From the IMG/VR virus record IMGVR_UViG_3300009636_000030, positions 1-27,273 of that record: 27,273 nt of DNA; one strand, 5' to 3'. Origin of the DNA: a virus. Made by a program: the position numbers and the translations under genes. The notes under the pieces were generated by a model. The model made no database searches, was not told the origin of the DNA, and saw only the letters and a program-made list of their open reading frames with translations. Below are positions 18,276-23,241 of this stretch, piece after piece (the stretch's first letter is position 1; each line of letters opens with the position of its first letter).

Positions 18276-19073
18276 CTATCCGAAAAACGGATTTTCTTTT
18301 CTTTTATAAGAATCAACATTTTTTTTATTAATGTTGACTACACCCAAATTAATTTTTGGAAATTCTTTAATGGTTTCATAACCGCCATCAACTTGTTTTT
18401 TCCATTCCAAATCTTTTTCTTTTGGATAGTCTATTGTCCATTTAACCGTTGATTTGTCAAGCATTTTCCTAGCCACCTTCGACAACGGCATAATGTACCT
18501 GAATTGTTTTCCCCTTATTCTAACGATGCCTTTCGTTTTCATAAAATCACGGGTCAACCAAAATATTTTTTCCTTATTACAAAACTTAGCGTTTTCAACA
18601 CAAAGGTTGTGTGCGGTTCTTGGATGAATCTTTTCACCATCAGGGCCAATATAAATGTCTGTCCATATAAAGCCACCATATAAAAAATTGGCAGACTGAT
18701 AAACATAACCACATTTTCCCACAATGCCATCTGCCCAAGTATATAAAAACAATCTTTCCGGCAAATTTATTTTCATCCATTTGACTACTGCTGATAGCAT
18801 TTGTGACTCGGAATTTTTTGGCATTTCAGGAAGCATACACATTTTGCCAATTTCATAATAGTCCTTGGTGGTAAGTGCAGGAAAAAGTTTTCGAATGGTC
18901 GCAAGGGGTTGTGTTCCCCAACCAAGAGTCAGAACGCCAACCATTTTATCTCCAATGAATACACCAAGATAATGTTTGGTAAGTCGGGGCATTACTTTTG
19001 AGTAATGATGTTCTTGAACTAATTCGGCTGCGGTGTATTTGTTTACTTTCTTGATTTTGAAATCAAATTTCAT
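18276..19073 (-). CDS. Mom-like DNA-modification protein (GNAT-type acyltransferase fold)
   Basis: A 265-aa protein resembling phage Mu Mom, which turns adenine in DNA into a carbamoylmethyl derivative and blocks many restriction enzymes. Shared features in order are EHHYSKVMPR (21-30), YLGVFIGDKMVGVLTLGWG (GNAT beta strands), YYEIGKMCMLPEMPKNSES, the FLYTWADGIVGKCGYVYQSA block (Mom-type Asp/Gly/Tyr-Gln-Ala), LYGGF, and GEKIHPRT. The C-terminal ~70 residues are extra and Lys-rich. It probably modifies phage DNA against restriction. No cofactor-supplying enzyme is obvious next to it. I am confident of the fold, less of the exact modification. Confidence 0.75.
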   Translation of the reverse strand: MKFDFKIKKVNKYTAAELVQEHHYSKVMPRLTKHYLGVFIGDKMVGVLTLGWGTQPLATIRKLFPALTTKDYYEIGKMCMLPEMPKNSESQMLSAVVKWMKINLPERLFLYTWADGIVGKCGYVYQSANFLYGGFIWTDIYIGPDGEKIHPRTAHNLCVENAKFCNKEKIFWLTRDFMKTKGIVRIRGKQFRYIMPLSKVARKMLDKSTVKWTIDYPKEKDLEWKKQVDGGYETIKEFPKINLGVVNINKKNVDSYKRKENPFFG

Positions 19074-20040: not shown

Positions 20041-20241
20041 TTAATTCTTGTTTATAAAAACTACACGGCATTCATCATTATGAATGACATACGTTCCCAC
20101 TATCTTACCATCAGCGGGAAGTTCTTTCAGAGGAGTTTCTATATGTAAAATAAACCATCCCTTAACTGAATTGTTGTCAGAGAATCTCTCTAATAAACAA
20201 TAGGTATTATCTTCTTGTTCGGATTTTAAATATTCTTTCAT
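20041..20241 (-). CDS. Hypothetical protein coupled to DNA polymerase
   Basis: A 66-aa protein starting MKEYLKSEQEDNTYCLLERF, with a beta-rich middle (GWFILHIETPL, KIVGTYVIHNDECRVVFIN). Its ATG overlaps the polymerase TGA (GGAGCATGA) with GGAG just upstream, so it is translated together with the polymerase. No domain is recognised. Confidence 0.6.
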   Translation of the reverse strand: MKEYLKSEQEDNTYCLLERFSDNNSVKGWFILHIETPLKELPADGKIVGTYVIHNDECRVVFINKN

Positions 20242-22901
20242 GCTCCAAAATCAAAAAACTGACTTGCTGTTTTCATCGCTGGATTTGGAAATGTCCACTT
20301 GAACACATCATAAATTCCATCGTTTTTGCCGTTTGCAAATTTTGATTTTAATTCTTGCTCGAACATCTTTTTTCTGTCCACCAACTGATTTACAAGGTCT
20401 ATTATTTCATCAGGGTCGTTTCCATCACCTTTTAATGCCAAAGCATCAAGACCGTATTGGTTGGTTTGTAAATATACCCATTTGATTTTTTGGCCGTGAT
20501 GAATGGGTTCAAAATCTCTTTCCAATCCCAATTTAATCAACAAATCATTATACGCTAACGCGGCTTTGGCTTGAGCGGGAGTGGCCAATTCAAAATGAAA
20601 TGGCAACCGACTGTCGGGGTTATAATTTTTGGTTCCGTCCTGACTTATAAATTTTACGGAAGTGTTCTTTGCTATATCAAGAACATCAAAAGTCTTCATA
20701 TCTTCCCTAAATTTGAGAATCATGTCATCCAATTCTTTTTTGGGAACATCGGTCAATAATTTTCTCAAAAAAGAATCCATAAACTTGCGAAATGAAGCTG
20801 GAAATGATGAACGCACCACGTCAATGCCCTTTACTTCCAACCTTGGTTGTTTCAATAAGGCACCTTCTTCATGAATAATCCACTGTGCATATCGTTTCTT
20901 AGCCAGCCAAAACGACGATTTACTGATAACTTCCTGTTTAGCATCAAACGTGTGTTTATTCAAATTGAAAAAACGTTTAGCCATGACGTTATAGAACTGA
21001 TTCACATAGCTCTGAACTTCGGTGGTGACGCTCATGATGGCTTTTGTCATGTCATCCTCATTATTCAAATCTATGTTTGGAAATCTCTTCTTGATAATGG
21101 GAATTGAATCAACAAAACACGAATCGGTATCACTATAAATCACCCAATCACCATCTTCAGCGGTGTCCAAAGCTTGTTTGTAATAAACATTTATTGCTTT
21201 TGCGGTAGTCTTGATGATATCCACACCGGTTGTAGTGACCGCTTCAGCATTATCCACATCATAGAAACGAAACACAGGCAATCCCAAAACTCCATAAAAT
21301 GAATTAAGCAAGATTTTCCAAACCGCTTGTCGTTGATTGTAGAAATTATATTGCTCCATGTCACCTGCCTTTTTGAATTCGGCAGCCTTCTTTCTCATGT
21401 CTTTGCGTTGTTTAAACCACAAATCCAACAATATTGGTATCACACCCCTTTTATCCTGCCTATAAAGCACCCCATTGGAAGATAACGAATAATTACATTT
21501 TTCAATCCATTCTCCAAATTCTTGTGGTGTATAATCAGCCTGACCCACCCGATAATTTGTCAATTCACCCTTTACGTGGGATTCAACCGAATAATTTTCC
21601 AGCTTACCCACCTTTGTTTCAGGTGATATATTCAAAGAAATGATGATATTGGGATACATGGAAGTTAAATCAAGGTCAAAGACCCAATTATACCTTCCCG
21701 GCACGGGTTCTTTTACAAAAGCACCCGAAAAGCCTTCTTCTCCTTCTTCCAATCTGTCTTCATAATCCTGTCTTCCCTGTGAAGGTTTGTTTGGCGCAAT
21801 CAAACCACCATTGCGTTTCAAATAAATCAGTGTGGCGCCATCGAGATATCTTGATGACATATGAAAGTTATCGTAAGGAACATGGCCGACATGGCAAATG
21901 TTTCTAGCCAAATCAATAAATTTAAGTTTTCTGTCCAACGCTACAACAATTTTAACGTCGGTCATGTTATATTCCAAAAACTTATTGATGTCTGCTTTAT
22001 ACAGGTCATTTAAATTACCGTGATACTGAATTTTACCTATACCTACCGTCTTTTGACCTATCGGACCAAGAGCATAAGTGGGTTCCATTTTTCCTGAGAA
22101 TTTTTTGTATAACAAAATGTAATCAAGAACGGATATGCCACCCACGGTTAATTTTTTACTAAAACCGTTTACGTAGGCTGCACCGATGGGTGACAAGCAC
22201 TTGGCCGCTTTTGCACCAAGACAATTTTTCAAACGAAGATAAAGATAAGGCATGTCAAAATAATCAACATTCCAACCTGTAACGATTGTGAACGCACACT
22301 CTTGCCATTTATCCATGAAACTTATCAAAAGATTGTCTTCATCGTCAAACGACCTTGTAACAATTTTTACCTTCTGTCTTTCTTCATCAGTGGTAATCTT
22401 CCAATCCTTTGGCAACCAAGGTTCAACTTCCTCTTCCTTGGAATCTATTTTATGGTCTTTATCAAGAATAAACACATAACAGGTCTTGGTCAAATAATCA
22501 AATAATGAAATGCCTGTAATTTCCTTGTTGGCCGTTTCCATGTTGGGAAACCCACCTTCGGTGGACACTTCAATATCAATAACTCCGACCTTATGTCCTT
22601 TGGATGGTTCGTCCGAATCCACATAGGTATCCATAAGAACTCTCGTTTCGGCTGGAACATCGGATTCAAACAATTCGGGGTCATTATCATTATAGTTGAA
22701 TACTTTTACAAGTTCGTCGCCGTAAAGTGAACGTTCCGGTCCACCTACCTTTTTCTTGTATGCATATTTTGGATAATCAAATGAGGTATAACCTTTTTCG
22801 TCATCCCAAAGATGAACAACCCAATCCTTTTTATTTATGTATATATTCTGGTAAATAAAATCCCATCCTTCTTTCTTTTCTTGTGTTTCTTGTTTTTCTT
22901 T
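20238..22901 (-). CDS. 43: Family B DNA polymerase (T4 gp43-like), N-terminal frame without a canonical start
   Basis: Replicative polymerase with 3'-5' exonuclease. Numbering from TTG 22673: Exo I VIDIEVSTE (D33, E35), Exo II TGWNVDYFD (~132-140), Exo III YNMTD (235-239), motif A DLTSMYP (335-341), motif B KILLNSFYG (453-461), motif C YSDTDS (513-518). The first ATG/GTG/TTG in frame is that TTG, but the frame is open to TAA 22904-22902. The extra 76 codons (for example WVVHLWDDEKGYTSFDYPKY) align with the gp43-type N-terminal domain, so they are coding. They begin in a Lys/Glu-rich stretch with no start codon. An ATG at 22930, overlapping the upstream stop as ATGA, opens the frame from which a -1 shift at 22892-22903 would enter the polymerase frame. 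Alternatives are an AUU start at 22856 after AAGGA, or a sequence error. Confidence 0.93.
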   Translation of the reverse strand, partial: KEKQETQEKKEGWDFIYQNIYINKKDWVVHLWDDEKGYTSFDYPKYAYKKKVGGPERSLYGDELVKVFNYNDNDPELFESDVPAETRVLMDTYVDSDEPSKGHKVGVIDIEVSTEGGFPNMETANKEITGISLFDYLTKTCYVFILDKDHKIDSKEEEVEPWLPKDWKITTDEERQKVKIVTRSFDDEDNLLISFMDKWQECAFTIVTGWNVDYFDMPYLYLRLKNCLGAKAAKCLSPIGAAYVNGFSKKLTVGGISVLDYILLYKKFSGKMEPTYALGPIGQKTVGIGKIQYHGNLNDLYKADINKFLEYNMTDVKIVVALDRKLKFIDLARNICHVGHVPYDNFHMSSRYLDGATLIYLKRNGGLIAPNKPSQGRQDYEDRLEEGEEGFSGAFVKEPVPGRYNWVFDLDLTSMYPNIIISLNISPETKVGKLENYSVESHVKGELTNYRVGQADYTPQEFGEWIEKCNYSLSSNGVLYRQDKRGVIPILLDLWFKQRKDMRKKAAEFKKAGDMEQYNFYNQRQAVWKILLNSFYGVLGLPVFRFYDVDNAEAVTTTGVDIIKTTAKAINVYYKQALDTAEDGDWVIYSDTDSCFVDSIPIIKKRFPNIDLNNEDDMTKAIMSVTTEVQSYVNQFYNVMAKRFFNLNKHTFDAKQEVISKSSFWLAKKRYAQWIIHEEGALLKQPRLEVKGIDVVRSSFPASFRKFMDSFLRKLLTDVPKKELDDMILKFREDMKTFDVLDIAKNTSVKFISQDGTKNYNPDSRLPFHFELATPAQAKAALAYNDLLIKLGLERDFEPIHHGQKIKWVYLQTNQYGLDALALKGDGNDPDEIIDLVNQLVDRKKMFEQELKSKFANGKNDGIYDVFKWTFPNPAMKTASQFFDFGA

Positions 22902-22930
22902 TTATCAACCACCAATATTCTTTTTTTCAT
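22835..22930 (-). CDS. Lys-rich leader frame overlapping the polymerase 5' end
   Basis: A 31-codon frame starts at ATG 22930, coupled to the upstream gene by ATGA, and ends at TAA 22837-22835. It begins MKKRILVVDKKKNKKHKK. It is either the true N-terminus of the polymerase joined by a -1 shift, or a leader peptide, or the 5' end of a gene split by an indel. The A-rich run TAAAAAGAAAAAC (22904-22892) holds imperfect slippery sites (T AAA AAG, G AAA AAC). Confidence 0.4.
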   Translation of the reverse strand: MKKRILVVDKKKNKKHKKRKKDGILFTRIYT

Positions 22931-23241
22931 AATTCATTCAAATATTTTACAACTTCTTCGCCCAATTCTGCTAAATCTTTTCCTTCGTGAAAATATTCAT
23001 CAAACAAAATAACAAAACCCTGTTCATTGAATTGTTTATATGATGGTAAATCAACATGTGCTGAATTGTCATGAAAATCATCTTCATCACCTAATTCAAA
23101 ATATACACTTCCGTTTTTTCTGAATTGACAGATAAATTGCCACTGTCCCAATTCTTGTTTTTTTGGAAATTTCCAAACAAATTCAATATATTCAGAATGA
23201 AAACTCTGATTGGATAAAAATTGGTTTTGAGGTATGTTCAT
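22927..23241 (-). CDS. Hypothetical protein upstream of DNA polymerase
   Basis: A 104-aa acidic protein starting MNIPQNQFLSNQ. It has beta-like segments (QWQFICQFRKNGSVYFELGD) and an acidic helical end (GEEVVKYLNEL). Its TGA overlaps ATG 22930. Its own start lies 50 nt inside the preceding gene. No family is recognised. Confidence 0.6.
   Translation of the reverse strand: MNIPQNQFLSNQSFHSEYIEFVWKFPKKQELGQWQFICQFRKNGSVYFELGDEDDFHDNSAHVDLPSYKQFNEQGFVILFDEYFHEGKDLAELGEEVVKYLNEL

Follow-up and report, generated by a model that had tools for sequence, protein, structure and literature searches.

We propose that the DNA polymerase gene on the minus strand of IMG/VR virus record IMGVR_UViG_3300009636_000030 (27,273 bases, analysed whole and here called the window) is probably translated from an AUU codon at position 22856 with the aid of a Shine-Dalgarno sequence, its canonical start having probably disappeared in an exchange of the upstream neighbour. 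This proposal is supported because the codon is ATG, GTG or TTG in relatives, because a separate lineage also has ATT, and because the Shine-Dalgarno energies at the ATT sites are better than usual. Feature coordinates are collected in Table 1.

The open polymerase frame spans 22901-20238 (887 codons), is bounded upstream by a TAA at 22904-22902 and, read over this whole span, holds no ATG, GTG or TTG ahead of TTG 22673, as a preliminary description of this DNA had stated. The window polymerase matches Pfam DNA_pol_B (8.1e-38) and an exonuclease domain (1.5e-17), and the copy of it on contig G001 matches PHROG 262, DNA polymerase (5.3e-167). The family B polymerase and exonuclease domains together place the predicted product with the T4-type gp43 polymerases. 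G001, a contig of 85,160 bases, covers all 27,273 bases of the window with 2 mismatches and has an identical start region; we refer to both as the window virus. Contig G002, which bears another IMG dataset number and is about 84% identical at the DNA level across the first 1,400 bases, likewise has ATT at the start site. As G001 and G002 both carry the ATT start region, an error confined to a single contig does not account for it.

Between the window virus and G002, the 60 codons from ATT to TTG show a nonsynonymous divergence (dN) of 0.083 and a synonymous divergence (dS) of 0.726, giving a dN/dS of about 0.11, and this purifying selection suggests that they are probably translated. We also looked for homologue matches that extend at least six codons ahead of a gene's first canonical start. 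On G001 such matches are found for 13 of 96 genes, reaching 69 codons for the polymerase and at most 14 for the other 12 (for the match listed per gene). On G002 they are found for 17 of 96 genes, with 60 codons for the polymerase and at most 19 for the others. The polymerase is thus the outlier among the genes of this phage. This test is noisy: on contig G004, where the polymerase starts with ATG, it flags 21 of 112 genes, three of which reach 23, 32 and 49 codons, and its list also includes one 50-codon open reading frame (ORF) without any start.

The start codon was compared across relatives collected by IMG/VR searches (20 loci, then 32 loci overlapping those). In relatives whose start region is covered, the codon aligned with ATT 22856 encodes Met, Val or Leu (ATG, GTG, TTG) and is followed by Tyr-(Gln/Lys)-Asn-Ile, the exceptions being the ATT contigs. 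For a broader census, two pattern scans for an xY(Q/K)NIY N-terminus followed by a WD motif contributed 80 of 89 and 15 of 15 matched stretches, to which cultured Microcystis phage Mel-JY01 was added as L003, for 96 places in all. Six places shorter than 80 codons were dropped; L123 resembles a true but broken polymerase with ATG, and the other five (L100, L118, L151, L152 and L195) look like chance matches. Merging 13 repeats with identical first 120 residues left 77 distinct N-termini, all of which match the window polymerase with a blastp E of 1e-5 or better. At the start site these have ATG in 47, TTG in 10, GTG in 4 and ATT in 3, while the remaining 13 have ATG one codon upstream, followed by Ala in 11 and Ser in 2. 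No other codon occurs at the start site among the 77. L130, L185 and a small number of other rows have an additional in-frame GTG or TTG at a more upstream position. The three ATT sequences are the window virus (L024), L019/L025 on G002, and L101 on contig G009. The preliminary description had pointed to AUU 22856, with AAGGA nine bases upstream, as one possible start, and this suggestion agrees with both the alignment to the relatives' start codons and the recurrence of ATT in L101. ATG 22866, which opens an 11-codon frame (MGFYLPEYIHK), was rejected as a start, being outside the polymerase frame and missing in L019. When genome contigs were scanned for a prophage relative or a host, five stretches matched, none of them a relative.

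The case of L101 is separate from that of the window virus. In a tree of 72 of the 77 N-termini (five under 200 residues were omitted), L101 falls next to L108, which has ATG, with support of 100/96, in a clade apart from the window virus and G002; the pairing of the latter two is moderately supported (93/60). The start codons placed on this tree require at least two changes. L108 has ATG yet shares nearly the same first 285 residues with L101. In L101, ATT comes directly after TAAGGAGG / TAAGGAGGATTT, with an in-frame stop three codons ahead of it. This stop excludes slippage from an upstream gene, and with the Shine-Dalgarno sequence in place it leaves only initiation at ATT. Between the neighbour shared with L108 and the L101 polymerase lies a 283-codon ORF with NUMOD3 motifs (Pfam E 3.2e-8), a motif known from homing endonucleases.

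For the Shine-Dalgarno energies, a stretch of 17 bases that stops three short of the start was scored for its strongest pairing with the 16S tail. The energies are -8.4 kcal/mol in the window, -6.1 in G002 and -12.2 in L101, where the pairing is unbroken; random sites are equally strong in 0.9%, 4.1% and 0.07% of cases, with the window and L101 both compared against G001. L101 and the window rank first and second among all 77 energies. Shine-Dalgarno energy grows stronger as the start codon weakens: the medians are -3.6 for ATG (n=60), -5.75 for GTG (n=4), -6.05 for TTG (n=10) and -8.4 for ATT (n=3). The comparisons of ATT with ATG (p 0.0036) and of GTG/TTG with ATG (p 0.00013) are uncorrected for relatedness, and the p-values are only indicative because there are three ATT rows, two of them related. 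The phage overall uses little Shine-Dalgarno pairing; genes of G001 (starts shared between contigs) have a median of -1.0 against -0.9 in shuffles, and 2 of 73 are at -8.4 or lower. A phage-encoded bS21 that would free the anti-Shine-Dalgarno (an idea from PMC9976891, excerpt) was considered and set aside, as it is found on none of 14 IMG/VR contigs; it is present in Mel-JY01.

Table 1. Features around the proposed polymerase start (positions in the window).
Feature	Position	Strand	Remarks
Family B (T4 gp43-type) DNA polymerase, predicted	20238..22856	-	872 codons plus stop if begun at ATT 22856
AUU start codon (proposed)	22854..22856	-	falls at the ATG/GTG/TTG of relatives; L019 and L101 have ATT as well
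Shine-Dalgarno-like AAGGA(U)GG, one bulged U	22863..22870	-	AAGGA at 22870-22866, nine bases before AUU
TTG, first canonical in-frame start	22671..22673	-	codon 77 of the frame, codon 62 from ATT 22856; rejected as start
Leader ORF, 31 codons, Lys-rich	22835..22930	-	opens at ATG 22930, ends at TAA 22835; overlaps the polymerase start in another frame
Upstream gene X	22927..23241	-	joined to the leader ORF by ATGA; 63.6% identical protein ahead of the G002 polymerase
Stem left arm GGUUGAUAAAA, tentative	22900..22910	-	pairs with 22860-22850
Stem right arm UUUUAUUUACC, holds AUU, tentative	22850..22860	-	pairs with 22910-22900
TAAAAAGAAAAAC, proposed slip site	22892..22904	-	rejected: in L019, TAA interrupts the -1 frame that follows an identical T AAA AAG

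Upstream of the polymerase, ATG 22930 of the leader ORF overlaps the TGA of gene X. The preliminary description had noted this ATGA overlap and the Lys-rich frame, both of which we find, whereas the coupling to gene X that it added is presumptive. Gene X has no Pfam family above the cut-off and the leader has no Pfam match. G002 has gene X followed by an 87-codon gene Y (68384-68647), which starts with ATGAAAAAG, again in an ATGA overlap, and ends with GILFTRIYT* across the polymerase start. The start of the leader, ATGAAAAA, and its tail, VVDKKK..GILFTRIYT*, match gene Y; the middle of gene Y is missing with the frame kept, and the leader is apparently a remnant of this larger gene. A pattern search for relatives of gene Y returned its own contig only, and L008 has a gene similar to it by eye, with the same end point, at a polymerase with ATG. 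Among the loci read, a leader of this form occurs only in the window virus, and the longer version in G002 ends in the same frame relation. Between the two, the leader frame is conserved upstream of ATT and the polymerase frame is not, while downstream of ATT the polymerase frame is conserved. Because a frame is retained by chance one time in three, its retention in the leader is weak evidence for a role. The tentative stem forms a duplex that is equally strong in 16 of 1000 shuffles for the window and 60 of 1000 for G002. We further note that in L011 and L013 (translated) and in L186, L189 and L194 (by eye) an ORF ending in RIWED(E/D), a motif known from Vsr-like endonucleases, lies just before the polymerase start.

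In the mechanism that we propose, the ribosome would be placed by the purine-rich match AAGGA(U)GG, and the CAU anticodon would pair with AUU as a near-cognate codon and so bring in formylmethionine. Less firmly, ribosomes may enter the leader ORF from gene X by way of ATGA and pass through the start region, and leader translation may open the weak stem that pairs AUU with GGUUGAUAAAA. As the leader ends 19 bases past AUU, polymerase synthesis would then be low and tied to translation of the preceding genes. Such translational coupling from leader to polymerase is plausible, and re-initiation after a leader, aided by a Shine-Dalgarno sequence, is established in E. coli (PMC2268962, excerpt). 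The canonical start was probably lost upon exchange of the upstream neighbour, and a Shine-Dalgarno sequence that arose or came along would have kept the gene working.

A number of observations weigh against this account. Initiation at AUU 22856 is predicted from sequence. Nine of the 89 stretches of the first pattern scan lie outside the census, and AT-rich DNA commonly contains the codon ATT. The independent ATT cases number two at best, because the window virus and G002 share ancestry, and the exact start region of L101 is present in one contig only. The -8.4 of the window requires the bulged U, the stretch ending at AAGGA reaching only -4.8, and the G002 pairing is also interrupted, its -6.1 being attained by 4% of random sites. 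Moreover, 29% of the 73 G001 genes have an energy of -4 or stronger, compared with 16% of shuffles. The part assigned to the leader and the stem is our own inference. No such stem is found in L101, where 666 of 1000 shuffles are as strong; the region as a whole folds no better than its shuffles, of which 115 of 200 fold at least as well; and the stem has no covariation, as both arms are identical in the window virus and G002. The predicted fold pairs the start codon with a probability of 0.81-0.99 in the window, so initiation would be hindered. Finally, low-level slippage may occur in this lineage, given the A_AAG tetramer that follows the last polymerase-frame stop in both contigs.

This tetramer is also part of the argument for a different origin of the N-terminus, a -1 ribosomal frameshift within TAAAAAGAAAAAC that would join the Lys-rich leader to the polymerase frame, as the preliminary description had suggested. 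The leader overlaps the polymerase in a frame relation fit for a -1 slip, and A_AA.G is among the three most shift-prone tetramers and slip-prone in E. coli (PMC4066793, excerpt). Slippery heptamers have the form X_XXZ_ZZN (PMC4066793, excerpt), however, and neither T AAA AAG nor G AAA AAC fits it, in keeping with the earlier judgement that these sites are imperfect. G002 also has T AAA AAG, but there a -1 slip would run into a TAA before reaching the polymerase. The residues that frameshifting would add also differ (KKEGWDF in the window, ERRRYF in G002), relatives with canonical starts have no N-terminal extension, and the L101 polymerase cannot be entered from any upstream frame. No frameshift stimulator was recognised in one fold of the region, no systematic search having been made. 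A relative in which the gain or loss of one base would bring ATG 22930 into the polymerase frame, a case that had also been raised, was not seen among the loci read. We regard frameshifting as unlikely.

Even less probable is a shortened polymerase begun at TTG 22673 or further in. No canonical start precedes this codon in the frame, and a mechanical ORF list selects it, but it would drop 61 residues found in relatives, the last 60 of them under selection, which bears out the earlier concern that a conserved N-terminal part would be cut off; no purine-rich Shine-Dalgarno sequence is visible within 20 bases ahead of it. We give just as little weight to an assembly or sequencing error that replaced a canonical start. 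All three ATT sequences are metagenome contigs, yet ATT is found under two dataset numbers, in contigs about 84% identical, and stands in a third lineage alongside a perfect Shine-Dalgarno sequence. A dying gene, its start eroded after the arrival of a new upstream neighbour, would fit the finding that in both ATT lineages this neighbour is unlike that of the ATG relatives (the gene Y remnant and the NUMOD3-motif ORF), and the G002 polymerase gene indeed bears an insertion. Against this stand an intact frame of 872 codons in the window and 847 in L101 and the low dN/dS over the first 60 codons, and we consider the explanation very unlikely. The insertion in G002 (L019) is about 1 kb long, at about 70080-71110, and has two ORFs, one of them HNH-like by eye; it may represent an intron or a split gene. 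The polymerase match of L021 is about 1.2 kb longer than most.

An extension of initiation at AUU, which we think quite improbable, would make the start a switch owned by the phage, in which the polymerase is made only when leader-delivered ribosomes coincide with permissive initiation, the permissiveness being set by an initiator-type transfer RNA (tRNA) of the phage. About 6 kb outside the window, G001 has a tRNA(CAU) at 20508-20586 with a C1xA72 mismatch and without three anticodon-stem G-C pairs; both the mismatch and the three pairs are features of initiator tRNA (PMC2268962, excerpt). An initiator tRNA as the constant partner of ATT was rejected, for one is present on G001 but no tRNA was found on the L101 contig or on G002, both of which are fragments.

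Other tRNA genes on these contigs include an initiator-type tRNA(CAU) with A1xA72 on G004 (237603-237679) and, on G001 (20383-20475) and G004 (129666-129760), a tRNA called Ile(UAU) by ARAGORN, whose variable arm is long and class II-like on each contig. The 365 kb contig G004 has 53 tRNAs, one with a CUA anticodon (266814-266888), and TAG ends 4 of its 94 compared genes over 300 bases. The window also encodes a Mom family protein at 18276-19073 on the minus strand (Pfam 3.7e-53).

AUU starts are known from cellular genes. The AUU start of E. coli pcnB reportedly limits expression, as Binns and Masters are said to have described in 2002; pcnB has the start codon proposed for the window gene and differs in being chromosomal where the window gene is viral. 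E. coli infC, which encodes IF3, starts with AUU and is autoregulated (PMC5472188, excerpt). The preliminary description had drawn a comparison with infC, which stands for the start codon and fails for the autoregulation: the window gene encodes a polymerase, and IF3 feedback on it is unsupported because none of 12 phage contigs, some partial, has an IF3 domain (PF00707), for which 10 of 14 control genomes are positive. In S. aureus, cvfC1 (AUU) and ccpN (AUA) have near-cognate starts with an extended Shine-Dalgarno sequence, documented by ribosome profiling and reporters (PMC13009471, excerpt). The window gene would share with them a near-cognate start, AUU in cvfC1, preceded by a Shine-Dalgarno match; these are cellular genes, while the window gene is viral and replicative, has a bulged Shine-Dalgarno sequence and is known here from sequence alone.

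Within the polymerase family itself, T4 gene 43 controls its own translation through an operator hairpin that has a UAAC loop and precedes the start (PMC3014915, excerpt). Gene 43 of T4 and RB69 and the window gene share the family and, on our proposal, translation initiation as a control point. The T4 hairpin lies upstream of the start, whereas the weak stem predicted in the window pairs the start codon itself; no search was aimed at a T4 hairpin. In a T4-related case, a homing endonuclease splits gene 43 (PMC2988022, excerpt). Homing endonucleases in or near gene 43 have a parallel in L101, whose NUMOD3-motif ORF lies directly before the polymerase; the L101 polymerase is whole, and it is its start codon that differs.

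Very few genes have a documented AUU start, and those in the literature found are cellular. In open-licence literature, judged from titles and the beginnings of abstracts among the matches listed, we found no AUU start of a phage DNA polymerase, which is no proof of absence. The sequences are best explained by a class of mechanism already known from a handful of cellular genes, for which a replicative phage polymerase in two lineages would be a new case. A gene finder restricted to ATG, GTG and TTG would trim 61 residues from this polymerase. If the proposal is correct, near-cognate starts persist in essential phage genes and were apparently reached twice in a replicative viral polymerase, and the relation between start-codon and Shine-Dalgarno strength would offer a testable evolutionary trade-off inside one gene family.

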